64,000 nucleotides of DNA from Erythrobacter ramosus (GTDB lineage: Bacteria > Pseudomonadota > Alphaproteobacteria > Sphingomonadales > Sphingomonadaceae), in assembly GCF_009828055.1 (NCBI RefSeq), contig NZ_WTYB01000001.1, positions 1 to 64,000 on the forward strand, written 5' to 3'. This document shows, in pieces, positions 30,179 to 37,482 of this stretch (within the stretch, counting starts at the first letter, position 1; each line of letters opens with the position of its first letter). The notes under the pieces were generated by a model. The model worked only from the letters and a program-made list of their open reading frames with translations. It searched no databases and had not been told where the DNA came from. A program made the position numbers and the translations under genes.

Positions 30179-32071
30179 ATGAATTTTGTCGGCAAGGTCT
30201 GGAAGATCCTCGTGGGGATCAAGGACGGACTGGTGCTCCTGTTCATGCTGCTGTTCTTTGTGGCACTGTTCGCCATCCTTTCGGCCCGCCCCAACCCCGG
30301 TCAGGTGCGCGAAGGGGCGCTGCTGATCGATCTGGACGGCATCGTGGTCGAAGAAAAATCGGTGCTCGATCCGATCGAGACCCTGCTGTCAGGCACCGCC
30401 CCGGTCGGCGAATACCGCTCCCGCGACATTGTCCGCGCGCTCGATGCTGCTGCAAGCGATGACCGAATCAAGGCCGTGGTGTTCGATCTCACCACCTTCC
30501 TCGGCGGCGGGCAGGTGCACCTCAAGGACATCGGCGAGGCGATGGACCGGGTGCGCAAGGCGAAGAAGCCAGTGCTGACCTATGCGGTCGGCTATGCAGA
30601 TGATCACATGCTGCTGGCCGCCCATGCGAGCGAGGTGTGGCTCGACCCGCAGGGCTTGGCCGTCATCTCCGGGCCGGGCGGCAACCGGCTTTACTATGCG
30701 GGCCTGCTCGAAAAGCTCAGCGTCAATGCGAGGGTGTACCGCGTGGGTGCGTTCAAATCGGCGGTGGAGCCCTATTCGCGCAGTTCGATGTCGGACGAGG
30801 CGCGCCAAAACCTTGGCGGCCTGTACGGCGCGATGTGGGAGGAGTGGCAGGCAAATGTCACCAAGGCCCGTCCCAAGCTTGCACTGGCGCGGGTGACGAG
30901 CGATCCGATCGCCTGGATCCAGAGTTCGGGCGGTGATCTGGCGCAAGCAGCCATCTCCGCAGGGCTGGTCGACAAGCTTGGTGACCGCGTCCAGTTTGGC
31001 GCGCGGGTGGCGGAATTGGCGGGCAAGGACCCGTGGAGCGACCTGCCCGGCACCTACGCCTCGAGCGAACTTGGCGCCTACCTCGCCGATGCCGGAAAGG
31101 ATCGTTCGGGCAAAACGATCGGCGTGATCACCATCGCGGGCGAGATCGTTGATGGTGATGCCGGGCCGGGGATCGCCGGGGGCAGGCGGATCGCCGACCT
31201 GCTCGACGAGGCGCTCGACGATGATTTCGCCGCGCTGGTGGTGCGGGTCGATTCGCCCGGCGGCTCTGCTACCGCGGCCGAGGAAATCCGCCGCGCGATC
31301 CAGCGTCACCGCGACCGCAAGATTCCGGTCGCCGTATCCTTCGGCAATGTCGCGGCAAGCGGCGGCTACTGGGTCGCCACCTCAAGCGACCGGATCTTTG
31401 CCGAGCCCGATACCATCACGGGCTCAATCGGCGTCTTCGCCGTGGTGCCAACCTTTGAACAGGCCGCCGCCCGGCTTGGGGTCAACGCCGATGGCTATCG
31501 CACCACGCCGCTTTCGGGCCAGCCCGACTTCATCGGCGGATTCAGCCCGGAAATGGACACGCTGTTCCAGACCTCAATCAGCGGCACTTACAAGGACTTC
31601 ATCACCCTCGTCTCCAAGGCGCGGCGCATGCCGGTCGACCAGGTCGATAGCATTGCACAAGGTCAGGTGTGGGACGGCGGGACAGCGCGCCAGAAGGGTC
31701 TCGTGGACGAATTCGGCGGTATGGATGCTGCGCTCGGCTGGGCGGCGGCCAAGGCTGGTTTGAAGGACGGCGGATGGCACGCGGTCTATCTTGGTGAGCA
31801 GAGCGAGAATTACGATTCGCTGATCCGCCAGCTGGTTTCCAGCCAGGCCGCGCGCGCGCGCGCCGTGAACAGTGGCGATCTGTTCGCCATGGCAGCGGCG
31901 CGCAGCGAGAACCTCGGCGCACGGCTCGCACGCGATGCCGAACGCCTCCTGGGAACGCGCGGTGTTCAGGCATTTTGTGCCGAGTGTCCGCCAAGCTCTG
32001 CGCACCCGCCCTCCCCCGCCAAGCGGCCTGAGGGGATGCTGGCGCTGCTGGCGTGGCTGACAGGCGGCTAA
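30179..32071 (+). CDS. sppA: Signal peptide peptidase SppA, 67-kDa type
   Basis: A 630-residue inner-membrane Ser/Lys protease that degrades cleaved signal peptides. One N-terminal membrane helix (residues 16-36) is followed by two tandem S49 domains. The catalytic Lys193 (GAFKSAVEPY) and Ser394 (NVAASGGYW) sit in different domains, as in E. coli SppA. The start at 30179 has GAAGGA 8 bases upstream; ATG 30175 is out of frame. It is divergent from pyrB. A short Cys/Pro-containing C terminus (CAECPPSSAHPPSP) is unusual. Confidence 0.93.
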   Translation: MNFVGKVWKILVGIKDGLVLLFMLLFFVALFAILSARPNPGQVREGALLIDLDGIVVEEKSVLDPIETLLSGTAPVGEYRSRDIVRALDAAASDDRIKAVVFDLTTFLGGGQVHLKDIGEAMDRVRKAKKPVLTYAVGYADDHMLLAAHASEVWLDPQGLAVISGPGGNRLYYAGLLEKLSVNARVYRVGAFKSAVEPYSRSSMSDEARQNLGGLYGAMWEEWQANVTKARPKLALARVTSDPIAWIQSSGGDLAQAAISAGLVDKLGDRVQFGARVAELAGKDPWSDLPGTYASSELGAYLADAGKDRSGKTIGVITIAGEIVDGDAGPGIAGGRRIADLLDEALDDDFAALVVRVDSPGGSATAAEEIRRAIQRHRDRKIPVAVSFGNVAASGGYWVATSSDRIFAEPDTITGSIGVFAVVPTFEQAAARLGVNADGYRTTPLSGQPDFIGGFSPEMDTLFQTSISGTYKDFITLVSKARRMPVDQVDSIAQGQVWDGGTARQKGLVDEFGGMDAALGWAAAKAGLKDGGWHAVYLGEQSENYDSLIRQLVSSQAARARAVNSGDLFAMAAARSENLGARLARDAERLLGTRGVQAFCAECPPSSAHPPSPAKRPEGMLALLAWLTGG

Positions 32072-32171
32072 GCATCAGCGAAATCGCACCTTACCTAGCC
32101 GCGAGCGCTTGCCAAGCGCGCAAGGCCCGATTAAAGGCGCCCCCCTGTCCGGGTCGTATGGCCCCACGGGC

Positions 32172-32246
32172 GGGCGCGTAGCTCAGCGGTAGAGCACACC
32201 CTTCACACGGGTGGGGTCACAGGTTCAATCCCTGTCGCGCCCACCA
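32172..32246 (+). tRNA. tRNA-Val (CAC)
   Basis: GGGCGCGTAGCTCAGCGGTA begins the gene; the acceptor arm GGGCGCG pairs with CGCGCCC. The anticodon stem CACCC / GGGTG encloses TTCACAC, giving anticodon CAC. T-arm GGTTCAATCC and encoded ACCA follow. Its 3' part is duplicated at 34649-34696, the mark of integration at this tRNA. Confidence 0.96.
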
Positions 32247-32249
32247 TTT
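32199..32249 (+). repeat. attL: 3' end of tRNA-Val
   Basis: The 48-bp segment CCCTTCACACGGGTG...CGCGCCCACCA plus TTT is repeated at 34649-34699 with one mismatch (GGGTGGGG versus GGGTGTGG). The tRNA remains intact on this side, as expected when an element integrates into the 3' half and restores it. Confidence 0.9.
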
Positions 32250-32301
32250 TTCCCTAGGTTTCAGAGTCTTTTAACTCTGTGGGTAAAGATGGTCCTTCGC
32301 T

Positions 32302-32535
32302 TCAGTGCGGAACAATGAGTGAAAATGCAGGCCAACGCGGCCCGAAACCGTACAATCCCCCTAACCGCAGACTCTCCCCCTGAAAGGCGTTCCGGGCGCG
32401 GATATCCTCACGACGATCAACCACCCGCGAAGGATCGCGCGGGTTCGCAATACATGCGGCAAGCCGCCCGCAGATCCTCATCATTCGCTCGACCTGCGAC
32501 AGCGCCAGCAGCATGCCGCCGTCCGAAGTGAGCCT
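32302..32535 (-). pseudogene. Remnant of an IS1380-family transposase (5' part)
   Basis: The minus-strand translation runs LTSDGGMLLALSQVE, then RLAACIANPRDPSRVV, and then loses similarity. This order matches the N terminus of IS1380-family transposases (TSDGGxxLLxxxDRRLG-xLxxRLAxCxxDPRDPxRVxH). The catalytic DDE region is absent, and no intact inverted repeats were found. It is a short fossil inside the island. Confidence 0.6.
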
Positions 32536-32665
32536 ACTCCCACACCAAACGCAGCTGTGGCCCTCTTGCCGCGAACCGCTGGAAACGAAAATACGGGCGC
32601 GCTATCAGCGCTTCCGACAGGTATAGTCTGCGGAACTTTCTACGTTGTATTTAAAGGAGTTAGCT

Positions 32666-34186
32666 GTGACAAATCGTGACGGTTGGCCGGAGGCAACGAG
32701 CTACTTGCTGCTTCTGGCCGCTATCCCACCGCTTCTGCTTATTCCCCTCAATCACGATGTCGTCTGGCAACTTTGGATTGGCAGAGAGATGACCGCTGGC
32801 GCGCAGCTGTATGTAGATATTCTAGAGATAAATCCGCCACTTTGGTTTTGGATTGCGCAGTCCCTTAATGTATTGGCTGAGAGTATTAGAGCACCTGCAA
32901 CAGGCACGCTGATCATAGCATTTGGTTTAACTATTGGCATAAGCATCACACTCTTATCGCGTCTGATTTCTGATAAGCGAGCAATCCAACGATTTGCAGT
33001 CTATGCCGCAGTGCTGACGGCCACCATCGTCTTACCTCTCAATGATTTTGGCCAACGTGAGCACTTCGTCTTAATTGTCTCAATTCCGTATTGTGCATTG
33101 ATCGCTGCTCGTCTTGATGGAAAATCTCCTTCAAACAGACTAGCTTCTGCAATCGGACTCTTGGCTGCTCTAGGATTTGCATTGAAGCACTATTTTGTGC
33201 TGGTTCCGTTGGCGCTTGAGCTATTGCTCTTTCTTTCCAGACGCGCCGATTGGAGAGCCTTGCGCGCCGAAACTGTTGTGCTTGGAACATCTGCACTGAC
33301 ATATGCCGCCTGCATCTTCATTTTCGCGCCTGAATTCATCAAAACGATGGTGCCATTGGTGCGGCTCGCATACGACAGTTATAATGTGCAGTTCTCCGAA
33401 CAACTTCAGCATTCCTTCGTCGGCGTTTACCTTTTTGCTGGATTTGGATTTCTCGTTTACGGATGGCCAGCTTCCAAGCTCTCGCAAGCTTTGATTGTTG
33501 CATCCGTGATGTTTCTCGGCGCCTACTTTCTTCAGCAAAAAGGCTTCCGCTATCAGGCGCTCCCAGCGACCGGTCTAATGTTTCTTGGAATTGTAATGGA
33601 GATTATGGAAGCGCGGCTCCGATCATTTCGACAGCGTGCTGGGGCAAGCATGCTTTCATTAGCGCTTCTTTTTCCGATCGTCGTGGCGATTGCCAGCGGC
33701 ACATATTTCAACAGCAAACGTATCGAAGCTGAACTCGCCACTGAGGATCTCAGTTCGGGAGACGTGGTTCTGACACTGGGCGCAAATCCGAGTGACATTT
33801 GGCCCATGAATTACGAACGCGGGCTGGTCTGGCCATCCCGCCATTTTGCATTCTGGATGTTACCGACGTTTGCCAAAAGGACCTCGCCAGAACTAGAAGC
33901 TTTTGCCGATCGGGTTCGCCTTGATACTGCACACGACATCGCCTGCCTGCCTCCAGATCGCATTCTTGTGAGCTCAACATATGGCCGGAGTTGGGAGGGG
34001 GTACGTAGTTTCGATATTCTCGGCTTCTTCCGAGCGAATAAGGAATTTGAGGAGGTGTTCCGGCAGTATAGTATTGGACACCGCTACGGCCGGTTTCAAG
34101 GCTATGACCTAGTCGGCAAGATTGACAGGCCTGACAACTGCCGGCCCCGATCTCCTTCAGCTCAAGGCGACATTGGGGCGAGTTAA
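32666..34186 (+). CDS. Putative GT-C-type membrane glycosyltransferase
   Basis: A 506-residue protein with about ten membrane helices in the first 350 residues and a soluble C-terminal part. Early motifs NHDVVWQLWIGREMTAGAQL and YVDILEINPPLWFWI are like the first-loop acidic motif and NPP of the GT-C (PMT/ArnT/GT39-like) superfamily, which moves sugars from polyprenyl carriers. Donor and acceptor cannot be inferred. GTG 32666 is preferred to the upstream TTG because AAGGAG lies 7 bases before it. The gene is visibly AT-richer than its surroundings and is the only intact cargo gene of the tRNA-Val island. Confidence 0.65.
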   Translation: MTNRDGWPEATSYLLLLAAIPPLLLIPLNHDVVWQLWIGREMTAGAQLYVDILEINPPLWFWIAQSLNVLAESIRAPATGTLIIAFGLTIGISITLLSRLISDKRAIQRFAVYAAVLTATIVLPLNDFGQREHFVLIVSIPYCALIAARLDGKSPSNRLASAIGLLAALGFALKHYFVLVPLALELLLFLSRRADWRALRAETVVLGTSALTYAACIFIFAPEFIKTMVPLVRLAYDSYNVQFSEQLQHSFVGVYLFAGFGFLVYGWPASKLSQALIVASVMFLGAYFLQQKGFRYQALPATGLMFLGIVMEIMEARLRSFRQRAGASMLSLALLFPIVVAIASGTYFNSKRIEAELATEDLSSGDVVLTLGANPSDIWPMNYERGLVWPSRHFAFWMLPTFAKRTSPELEAFADRVRLDTAHDIACLPPDRILVSSTYGRSWEGVRSFDILGFFRANKEFEEVFRQYSIGHRYGRFQGYDLVGKIDRPDNCRPRSPSAQGDIGAS

Positions 34187-34191
34187 TAGCG

Positions 34192-34207
34192 GACGCTTTC
34201 AAGCGTC
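34192..34207. terminator. Hairpin after the GT-C gene
   Basis: GACGCTT-TC-AAGCGTC, a perfect 7-bp inverted repeat 6 bases after the stop. No T-run follows, so termination is uncertain. Confidence 0.35.
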
Positions 34208-34520
34208 TGGATGCTGCGACGGGGCTTTGCCGTGGATGGTCGCTTGCGCGCGCTCGATCGCATCGGGGCTCAATTTGCCGCTTTCGTTCAACAGTGTGGA
34301 GGCTATCGCGCGGAAGCCGTGCGCGGTCATTTCATCGGTAGCGTAGCCCAGCCGCCGCAGACCGGCATTGATGATGTTTTCGCTCATCGGGCTGGTGCAG
34401 GTGCGCACGGATGGAAAGACGTAACCGATCGGCCCCGTCACTGCCTTGACTTGCCGGGACAGCTCTACAGTCTGCCGCGATAGGGGAACATGATGCGCCG
34501 GCCGGGCTGAAAGGTCTCCA
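34199..34520 (-). pseudogene. P4-type tyrosine integrase remnant
   Basis: The minus-strand frame reads HHVPLSRQTVELSRQVKAVT, then GPIGYVFPSVRT, SPMSENIINAGLRRLGY and EMTAHGFRAIASTLLNE. These are the core motifs of P4-type prophage integrases, including the box II His-x-x-Arg (HGFR). The N-terminal part is missing and the C-terminal Tyr region is lost: after PDAIERA the sequence diverges and stops at 34199. It lies 129 bp inside the distal att repeat, the normal place for this integrase type. Confidence 0.85.
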
Positions 34521-34648
34521 TGTCCATGATGCGTTCTAGCGCGAATGCAGTCAGGTTGGATATGATCAGGTACAAAGCTCGTACACTCGGCTTAGGCCTA
34601 CGCTATGATATTCTATCAAAATCATAATATTAACTTAGGCCACCAGCC

Positions 34649-34699
34649 CCCTTCACACGGGTGTGGTCACAGGTTCAATCCCTGTCGCGCCCACCATTT
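34649..34699 (+). repeat. attR: duplicate of the tRNA-Val 3' end
   Basis: Forty-eight bases matching 32199-32246 with a single G-to-T difference, including the T-arm and CCA end, followed by TTT in both copies. There is no 5' half, so this is not a functional tRNA. Confidence 0.92.
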
Positions 34700-34857
34700 C
34701 CTTCCCTTTGCGGCAGAGTGGAAATGGAATGACTGTGAACCGCCTTGGCCCGCTGCGCCTCCTACTTGCGTCATTCGCCCCTCCTGCCTTGACCGGGCAA
34801 CGGTGTTCGCGGCAAGGCTTGTCGCTCACGCCGTCGGGCGATCAAGCGAGGTTCTTC

Positions 34858-37482
34858 ATGCGCAATAAATTCTGGGGCCAGTGCCTTGTCGTAATGGCGG
34901 CTCTGATGAGTGCAGGCCAACCTGCCGCGGCGCAGTCCTTTACCGAGGGCAGCTTTGATCCTGCGATCCCCACGTTGACCGCTACGGTCGGCCATGCGCC
35001 GGGCGCCCGCATTACCTCGCCGGACCAGACCTATGTCTATCTGAAGGCGCTTGCCGAAGCTGCGCCGGATCGGGCACGGCTGGTGCAATATGCGGTGAGC
35101 TGGGAGGGGCGGCCGCTCTATTACCTCGTGCTGTCCGCACCCGCCAACATGGCGAAACTCGACGCAATTCGGGCCGATATGGCGACAATTGCTGCGGGAC
35201 GACCCGGCAATGGCTCGGCGATGCCCGTGACATGGCTTGCCTACGGCGTCCACGGCAACGAGATCTCCTCGACCGATGCGGCGCTGATGACCGCCTACCA
35301 CCTGCTCGCCGCCAAGGATGACGCGCGCGCCGCCAAGATCATGGCCGGCACCATCGTCGTCATCGACCCGATGCAGAACCCCGACGGGCGCGCGCGGTTT
35401 GTGAACAATTTCCTCGCTTCGACCGGCATCACCCCAGCTGCCGACCGGCAGGCGGCCGAGCATGACGAGCCGTGGCCTTCGGGCCGGGTCAACCACTACA
35501 TGTTCGATCTCAACCGCGACTGGTTCACGCTCAGCCAGCCCGAGACCCGGGGCAAGGTTGCCGCGATCCGCCAGTGGAACCCGGTGGTGGTGGTCGACCT
35601 GCACGAAATGGGCGGGGACGAGACCTATTTCTTCAGCCCCGCCGCGCAGCCCTTCAACCCCAATCTCTCGGCAGCGCAAATCCGCAGTTACGAGCTGATC
35701 GGGCGCTACAACGCAGCCGCCTTTGATGCGCGCGGCGAGCCCTATTTCACGCGTGAGGTCTATGACCTGTTCTACCCCGGTTATGGCGACACCTGGAACG
35801 CGCATCAGGGCGCGATCGGGAGCACCTACGAACAGGGTTCTGCGCGGGGCTTGGTGTTTGCACGGCGCGACGGGACGGAACTGACCTACGCTGACGGCAT
35901 CACCAACCACTTCACGGCCAGCCTCGCCACCGCTGCTGCTGTGGCCGACAATCCTGCGCGGTTCCTCAGCGACTTTGCCGCCAATCGCAGCGGCAATGCC
36001 AGTGGCTCGGCCGGACGCGGCACGTATGTGATCGACCTGTCGAAGCGGCGCTGGAATGCCGAGCGGCTGGGCCGCCGCTTGGCCGAACAGGGCATCACCG
36101 TGCTCCGACGCGAAGGCAGCGCGAGTGTTTGCGGAAAGTCCTATCCCGCAGGCTATCTCGCCGTCCCGCAGGCCCAGCCCGCCGCGCGGCTGGTAAAGAG
36201 CCTGCTTGACCGCGACACGCCGTTGCCGCCCGATTTCCTCGCCGAACAGGAGCGCCGCCGCTCGGTCGATCTGCCGCATGAGCTTTACGATGTGACCGCA
36301 TGGTCGGTGGGGCCGATGGCGGGCGTGGATGTGGCGCTGTGCAATGCGGCCGTCAGCGGCGATGCAATGAGCGCCGATGCGCCGATTGCAGCCAAGGCGG
36401 AAGGATCAGGCAGCTTTGGCATTGCCGTGCCGTGGACCGACAGCGGGCAGGCGCGGCTGGTCGCCTTGGCGCTGCGCGAAGGGATCGACGGGCGCGTGAC
36501 CGACCGCGCCTTCACCACCGCAGGCCGCGAGTTTCCGCGCGGGACAGTGGTGTTCCCGGCAGGCTCCAATAGCCCGGACAAGCTGGCACGCCTCGCCGAA
36601 CTCACCCGAGACGTCGGTGCGCATACGGTGGCGCTCGAAAATGGCTGGGTCGACGATGGGCCGAACCTTGGCAGCGAGCATTTCGTGAGGCTAACCATGC
36701 CGCGCGTCGCCGTGGCATGGAACGACGGCGTCTCGCAATTGAGCGCGGGCGCGCTGCGCTATGTGCTCGAACAACGGCTTGGCCTGCCGGTAACCCCGAT
36801 CCGCACCAGCCGGTTGGGCCGCGCAGACCTGTCGGATTACGATGTGGTGCTGGTGCCCGAAGGCGATCCGTCGAGCGTGCTCGGCGATGGGGGCCTGCGG
36901 GCGATCCGCAGCTTCGTGCAGCGCGGCGGCGTGCTGGTGGCAATCGGTGAGAGCTTGGAAACCTTCAGCAGCGGCGAAAATCCCCTGCTGGCTGTGAAGC
37001 GTGAAGCGGCGCTGGGACGTGAGCCTGCCGACGGCGATGACGACAAGGCCGCGCTGGCTGAAGCAGTCGCGATCGGCAACGACGCGGAATACCGTGAAGC
37101 GATCAAGGACCAGCAGGCACTCCCCGACACGCTGCCGGGCGCGCTGCTCAATGTCGTGGGCGAGCCCGATCACTTCCTCTCCGCCGGTTACGACAATGGC
37201 GCCGTGGTGCTCGCGACGGGCACGCAGATCTTCACCCCGCTCGACCGGGCCAATGGGATCAACGTCTTGCGCTTCGCCGCGCCAGGCAACCTGATCGCCA
37301 GCGGCTATGTGTGGGACGAGAATCGGCGGCAGCTGGCCTATAAGCCCTACCTGATGGCGCAGCCGCAGGGGCGCGGGTTGGTGATCGGCTTTGCCCATGA
37401 TCCTTCGGCCCGTGCCTATCTCGAAGGGCTCGACCTGATGATCGCCAACGCGGTGATGGTGGCGCCGTCTCGGGTGCGGTGA
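34858..37482 (+). CDS. Secreted M14-family zinc carboxypeptidase
   Basis: An 874-residue exported protein (signal peptide to about residue 26, AAAQSFTEG). The M14 zinc motif HGNE (His132, Glu135) and the third ligand His249 (VVVDLHEMGG) are present. The region after 400 (about 470 residues) has a partly glutamine-amidotransferase-like segment (DYDVVLVPEGDPSSVLG, FVQRGGVLVAIGES). ATG 34858 is chosen for its signal peptide and the GAGG 6 bases upstream; an in-frame extension would overlap the att repeat. Such proteins degrade peptides outside the inner membrane. It lies just outside the island. Confidence 0.85.
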   Translation: MRNKFWGQCLVVMAALMSAGQPAAAQSFTEGSFDPAIPTLTATVGHAPGARITSPDQTYVYLKALAEAAPDRARLVQYAVSWEGRPLYYLVLSAPANMAKLDAIRADMATIAAGRPGNGSAMPVTWLAYGVHGNEISSTDAALMTAYHLLAAKDDARAAKIMAGTIVVIDPMQNPDGRARFVNNFLASTGITPAADRQAAEHDEPWPSGRVNHYMFDLNRDWFTLSQPETRGKVAAIRQWNPVVVVDLHEMGGDETYFFSPAAQPFNPNLSAAQIRSYELIGRYNAAAFDARGEPYFTREVYDLFYPGYGDTWNAHQGAIGSTYEQGSARGLVFARRDGTELTYADGITNHFTASLATAAAVADNPARFLSDFAANRSGNASGSAGRGTYVIDLSKRRWNAERLGRRLAEQGITVLRREGSASVCGKSYPAGYLAVPQAQPAARLVKSLLDRDTPLPPDFLAEQERRRSVDLPHELYDVTAWSVGPMAGVDVALCNAAVSGDAMSADAPIAAKAEGSGSFGIAVPWTDSGQARLVALALREGIDGRVTDRAFTTAGREFPRGTVVFPAGSNSPDKLARLAELTRDVGAHTVALENGWVDDGPNLGSEHFVRLTMPRVAVAWNDGVSQLSAGALRYVLEQRLGLPVTPIRTSRLGRADLSDYDVVLVPEGDPSSVLGDGGLRAIRSFVQRGGVLVAIGESLETFSSGENPLLAVKREAALGREPADGDDDKAALAEAVAIGNDAEYREAIKDQQALPDTLPGALLNVVGEPDHFLSAGYDNGAVVLATGTQIFTPLDRANGINVLRFAAPGNLIASGYVWDENRRQLAYKPYLMAQPQGRGLVIGFAHDPSARAYLEGLDLMIANAVMVAPSRVR

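Follow-up and report, generated by a model that had tools for sequence, protein, structure and literature searches.

At the tRNA-Val(CAC) gene of Erythrobacter ramosus a small stretch of foreign-looking DNA holds one intact gene and two broken ones, which raises the question of how this DNA arrived, and what a gene delivered on its own could do for its new host. A sequence-only reading of the window (the whole stretch of 64,000 nucleotides that was analysed) had seen a decayed island whose recombination genes were broken whilst its cargo survived. In what follows, G000 is the genome of the window and G001 the nearest genome compared, which belongs to the same genus.

Insertion at the tRNA-Val(CAC) gene

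The features of the island are, in order along the window:

32172-32246, plus strand: tRNA-Val(CAC), the integration target, intact (ARAGORN; Rfam RF00005)
32199-32249, plus strand: attachment repeat, proximal copy, 51 bp, within the 3' part of the tRNA (left homology of the empty site in G001 stops at 32249)
32250-32392, no strand: left arm of the island (32250-32359 recurs behind the same tRNA in G083, 77% identity)
32393-32641, minus strand: DDE_Tnp_1_4 transposase scrap, about the first 80 codons (DNA identity to copies; Pfam on the L140 copy)
32654-32659, plus strand: AAGGAG, likely ribosome-binding site of the island gene (read from the sequence)
32666-34186, plus strand: gene for a predicted GT-C-fold glycosyltransferase, intact, 506 aa, no Pfam family (open frame; predicted model)
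34246-34497, minus strand: integrase piece, 252 bp, about residues 310-392, tRNA-Gly-type group (sequence comparison)
34498-34648, no strand: stretch preceding the distal repeat (without match in the other 113 genus genomes)
34649-34699, plus strand: attachment repeat, distal copy, one mismatch (right homology of the empty site in G001 begins at 34649)

An element entered the 3' part of tRNA-Val(CAC) by site-specific recombination, which left the tRNA whole and a 51-bp repeat behind. The repeat is direct, has a single mismatch and a spacing of 2450 bp, and is made up of the 3' part of the tRNA plus three bases beyond it, so that the repeated tRNA end reported from the sequence alone was borne out; the unit it delimits is 2.45 kb in size. 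An S49 peptidase gene and an M14 peptidase gene border the island, and no RNA family besides the tRNA was found by Rfam between 31000 and 36000. With a query limited to 31600-35000, homology to G001 on the left side extends as far as 32249 (93.5% identity over 650 bp) and resumes on the right side at 34649 (89% over 353 bp), and the two alignments converge on a single copy of the tRNA, that is, on an empty site. As the flanks of G001 meet in one tRNA copy, the repeat is not a chance match, and this clean empty site also rules out a local duplication of the tRNA end. An empty site with one repeat copy had been predicted for relatives, and it was found in G001 and seven further genomes of the genus.

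The occupancy of the site was counted across 61 genomes of the genus, G000 included, using the tRNA and the downstream peptidase as anchors; 21 of these (again with G000) were kept, in which both anchors were listed on one contig, and 40 were omitted because one of the anchors was absent, lay elsewhere or on another contig, or was not among the matches listed. The anchors lie 151-221 bp apart in eight of the 21, which are empty, and 508 to 47,613 bp apart in the remaining 13. Because the spacings split in this way, the tRNA-Val(CAC) site is an integration hot spot that occurs in both empty and filled states. The other tRNA-Val(CAC) islands of the genus resemble the present one in using the same tRNA and the same repeat, but at least seven of them have another integrase near a repeat copy.

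In the other 113 genomes of the genus nothing matches the island gene at more than 38% identity, and therefore none of them carries the island. Among the DNA matches listed within the genus, those to the island fall on the tRNA, on either the integrase or the transposase piece, or on short sequences next to the repeat. Matches to the left arm occur in four of 114 genomes (G000 included), in two of them only over 27-34 bp. In G083 (L014 / L066), where the anchors are 508 bp apart and the distal repeat is missing, the first 110 bp behind the tRNA resemble the left arm of the island; judging from this similarity, the stretch is probably the scar of a related element. The shift in composition that had been remarked upon also held: GC content in 500-bp windows is 47-55% inside the gene and 60-69% in the flanks, and GC3 is 0.50 in the island gene as against 0.79, 0.79 and 0.82 in three neighbouring genes.

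Origin of the integrase and transposase pieces

The sequence-only reading had placed an integrase remnant near the distal repeat and treated the broken genes as the island's own recombination machinery. An integrase piece does lie there, 151 bp inside the distal copy, but the remnant at the left end is a transposase, and the idea of home-grown machinery was not supported: the one piece is of a tRNA-Gly type and the other belongs to a transposase that is multi-copy in two other genomes. Both have the look of debris from other elements.

The integrase piece derives from a tyrosine integrase with an arm-binding domain and is, as protein, 88, 88 and 87% identical to the integrases of three loci, L112-L114. 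Among 18 loci related to it that were scanned, 15 have a tRNA-Gly (CCC or TCC) and three have no tRNA that was seen. In L112 the integrase begins directly behind the tRNA and on the same strand, whereas the piece described here sits at the far end of the island and on the opposite strand. When it was compared with seven tRNA-Val integrases, no alignment went beyond 14 residues at E 8.2; given this, and its 87-88% identity to integrases of the tRNA-Gly type, it was rejected as the island's own enzyme. It is the sole integrase piece in the island, within which no integrase or remnant specific for tRNA-Val was found. The stretch at 34498-34648 was considered as a relic of a tRNA-Val integrase and likewise rejected, since it has no match in the other 113 genus genomes or in the collected loci. 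An integrase of the wider group that is still intact stands behind tRNA-Leu(CAG) in G000 itself (L116:6585-8063, which is G000:C2:306584-308062) and is 57% identical to the island piece.

At least seven integrases lie near the tRNA-Val repeat in relatives, among the matches listed. Those of G028, G107, G124, G024 and G092 (L133, L151, L146, L147 and L148) are one family with 78-94% identity, encoded on the opposite strand directly inside the distal copy of the tRNA-Val repeat and with a common arm before the repeat; by these comparisons they appear to represent a coherent family of elements specific for tRNA-Val(CAC). The tRNA-Val integrases of G079 and G084 are two further types, and the occupied sites of G016, G017, G022, G025, G063, G064, G065 and G073 show no integrase among the matches listed. 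The transposase scrap, about 250 bp long, is 74-81% identical at the DNA level to sequences present in five genomes, twice in each of two of them, and its Pfam family, DDE_Tnp_1_4, goes with IS1380-type elements. A broken integrase next to an attachment repeat need not, then, be the one that made the insertion.

The island gene and its predicted fold

The cargo gene had been described as intact, and is so: its frame is uninterrupted and opens with a GTG, six bases 5' of which stands the AAGGAG motif. A promoter scan gave four weak sites, all on the minus strand and none of them preceding the gene, and terminator-like sites number one, fewer than in shuffled sequences. No match to the protein was found in Pfam or PHROGs at E values up to 1, and NCBIfam returned one, at E 0.059 and below the cut-off. 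Among 14 aligned relatives only scattered weak matches came up, the best of them at E 0.0035 and confined to a single member; searching PDB sequences with a profile yielded one hit, at E 0.51. Origin as a phage gene was rejected, with no match in 50,697 phage records and none in PHROGs; six plasmid records do match. In the BFVD structure library a single row reached E <= 0.001, a nameless protein of 580 residues.

A structure model was built from a five-row alignment (mean pLDDT 76.8, pTM 0.78). The first 20 rows of a Foldseek search against the PDB are all GT-C glycosyltransferases or complexes containing one, eight of them at E <= 0.001, with TM-scores of 0.30-0.49 by query length. With VIA-align 2 the best matches were Pmt4 (Z 18.0; 323 residues, 4.9 A), ArnT 5f15 (Z 16.3; 404 residues, 5.1 A), ArnT 5ezm (Z 16.0; 426 residues, 5.5 A) and AftA (Z 15.8; 415 residues, 6.4 A), values which are slightly above the caution level of about 13-14 for helical models. 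Rows 1-44 of that search are by title GT-C enzymes or complexes, counting row 8, a GPI transamidase, which we take to be of GT-C type; other proteins begin at Z 6.2, and the absence of other folds from the pdb_via listing carries no meaning. The model thus predicts that the island protein carries the GT-C membrane fold. The solved structures of ArnT, AftA and Pmt4 have this predicted fold in common with it over 323-426 residues; however, sequence identity in those alignments is 8-12% and there is no credible profile match. A catalytic acidic residue is characteristic of the first outside loop of GT-C enzymes; a candidate for it in the island protein is Asp31, which the model places behind the first helix and which does not vary among 14 aligned rows.

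Relatives of the island gene and the host locus

Relatives of the gene are distributed patchily, in 15 of 114 genomes of the genus and 27 of 296 of the order (G000 in both counts), and the best is 40% identical; named records that hold them include Novosphingobium, Sinorhizobium and Rhizobium. From 44 relatives 30 were read, in loci of 7.8-17 kb, and 14 were left out (six weak matches from the genus, four from the order and four on Rhizobium plasmids). None of those read is located at tRNA-Val, as judged partly by contig position. Within a few kb of the relatives there is a close GT2, treated here as GtrB-like, in 12 of the 30 loci, a close methyltransferase in 11, GtrA in 13, and all three in nine. 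Six of the loci have a weak GT2 match only, and L010 has a Pfam GT2 that tblastn missed. Eleven show no GT2, methyltransferase or GtrA; L123, L190 and L202 are cut short or split. The relatives in L117, L118, L119 and L123 (from G120, G065, G103 and G017) stand without Gtr partners in a neighbourhood common to all four. With only two GtrA genes in the 3.24 Mb of G000, the chance that a random 12-kb stretch would hold one is about 1%, a rough estimate from one genome.

In two loci GtrA (PF04138) and a relative of the island gene are fused in one protein, namely L185:4539-6386 (plasmid MBES04p1) and L008:4530-6443 (Novosphingobium sp. ERN07). The annotated order on MBES04p1 is glycosyltransferase, methyltransferase and GtrA family protein, the last being the one fused to the relative. 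A tree of 30 rows, comprising the island gene and 29 relatives without the split relative L202, puts the island gene on a branch of 0.93 changes per column within a clade of 13 rows (95/96 support), of which the others are four GT2-linked and eight unlinked rows, and within which the internal order and the nearest kin are not resolved. The donor of the island gene is not one of the genomes sampled.

No gtrA or gtrB was found in the island, and hence no gtrABC in a single operon. The host chromosome of G000 has a GT2, a methyltransferase and GtrA in that order at C2:1155731-1157892. Compared with L008, where the gene order is the same, the GT2 is 64%, the methyltransferase 54% and the GtrA 44% identical, and in L008 the place behind GtrA is taken by the GtrA-fused relative of the island gene. 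The C-terminal end of the host GT2 contains two hydrophobic stretches, and the protein matches the ArnC-type (PRK10714) and PgfS-type models, below their cut-offs. Overlapping the host GtrA and continuing behind it is an open frame that has about eight hydrophobic stretches and matches nothing in Pfam, perhaps a resident transferase; together with the three genes before it, this frame makes up L166:8732-12473, which is G000:C2:1155731-1159472. A GtrA gene with a similar score occurs in G001 too, which is without the island.

Discussion

It is known that surface-sugar genes travel on islands at tRNA sites, usually together with helper genes; the gene described here came without them. According to PMC3688519, Salmonella gtr operons are found alongside tRNA genes, one locus being defined by direct repeats and an Arg-tRNA, SPI-16 is described as stably maintained and phage-derived, and GtrC sequences are said to show little homology between families. 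The island resembles these loci in having a foreign glycosyltransferase gene beside a tRNA gene and, as in SPI-16, direct repeats as its bounds, but they are presented there as carrying whole gtrABC operons, whereas the island has the GT-C gene alone and showed no phage gene; the host and the protein family differ also. PMC11127046 describes three-component periplasmic glycosylation, in which GtrB is the UndP-glucose synthase, GtrA the proposed flippase and a GT-C enzyme performs the last step. To the system as outlined there, the likeness lies in the predicted GT-C fold, in relatives near or fused to GtrA and in a nearby GT2 with two C-terminal membrane helices; the differences are the methyltransferase in the relatives' neighbourhood (11 of 30 loci) and the fact that the island is a single component. 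A search for literature joining Sphingomonadales, genomic islands, tRNA genes, integrase and glycosyltransferase found none.

We consider it probable, though far from settled, that the island gene encodes a GtrC-like surface-glycan transferase which was delivered without its partners, the whole resembling a stripped-down SPI-16. A GtrB-type enzyme would load a sugar onto undecaprenyl phosphate, GtrA would flip the lipid-linked sugar, and the GT-C enzyme, acting in the periplasm, would transfer it to a surface polysaccharide; the island would supply the last component only, and the host locus at G000:C2:1155731-1157892 could supply the donor. A donor of the Gtr type is suggested by the GtrA fusions and by the GT2-methyltransferase-GtrA neighbourhoods of the relatives, and these are what speak against a GT-C enzyme with some other acceptor or donor, such as an ArnT-like lipid A modifier, a protein O-glycosyltransferase or a stand-alone enzyme that makes no use of the host's Gtr-like locus. 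That alternative seems unlikely to us, but it draws on the different acceptors of the best fold matches (Pmt4, ArnT and AftA), on the 11 of 30 loci that have no Gtr partner and on the match of the host GT2 to the ArnC-type model as well. The GtrC-like reading itself should be considered with caution, as the island has neither gtrA nor gtrB, partners are missing from those same 11 loci, six more offer no more than a weak GT2 match, and the host may own a transferase already; moreover, the clade is unresolved, the model comes from five sequences, the TM-scores are low and the Z values barely exceed the caution level.

Whether the gene does anything for its host is a separate matter, and a gene that came with a recent insertion, is intact but idle and will decay in time would be compatible with a GtrC-like identity. 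The two flanking genes differ between G000 and G001 by 0.21 and 0.27 per fourfold site, about half of it per branch. An unselected frame would still be free of stops with a probability of 0.57 at 1% divergence since insertion, or 0.125 if indels are added at an assumed 0.1 per substitution, and of about 0.004 at 0.1 changes per site, the age of the G001 split. The sequence-only reading had argued from the intact gene to its usefulness; the argument would carry weight only if the island is near the age of that split, at which survival would be surprising, and not at 1% divergence. With one mismatch in 51 bases the repeat gives no date for the insertion, and the nearest relative, at 40% identity, is too distant for a calculation of dN/dS. 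A neutral passenger, for which the absence of a promoter-like site on the gene's strand in the scan and of the gene from the other 113 genus genomes (at >38% identity) also speak, is therefore a serious candidate whose chances we put somewhat below even, and usefulness to the host is possible. As to the unit as a whole, it could be an integrase-less unit flanked by attachment sites and moved in trans by tRNA-Val integrases, rather than the rest of a larger element. No tRNA-Val-type integrase sequence was seen inside it, and genomes of the genus with the same repeat do have such integrases; however, no second copy was seen in the genus genomes among the DNA matches listed, and the internal scraps fit a deletion within a larger element equally well, so that we regard movement in trans as rather improbable.

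Under the GtrC-like reading, a group of membrane proteins for which Pfam has no model gains a likely function, tied to the Gtr pathway, and the island provides a case of an acceptor-specific enzyme arriving without its partners. It is a long shot, but the host GT2-methyltransferase-GtrA locus might be a shared donor platform into which mobile islands plug interchangeable GT-C transferases that have no Pfam model, such that one partnerless foreign gene could alter the cell surface, carried on a unit that may be integrase-less by design and mobilised in trans by tRNA-Val integrases. If the host platform does serve the island gene, a change of surface could be gained with 1.5 kb of DNA, which may have a bearing on resistance to phage.
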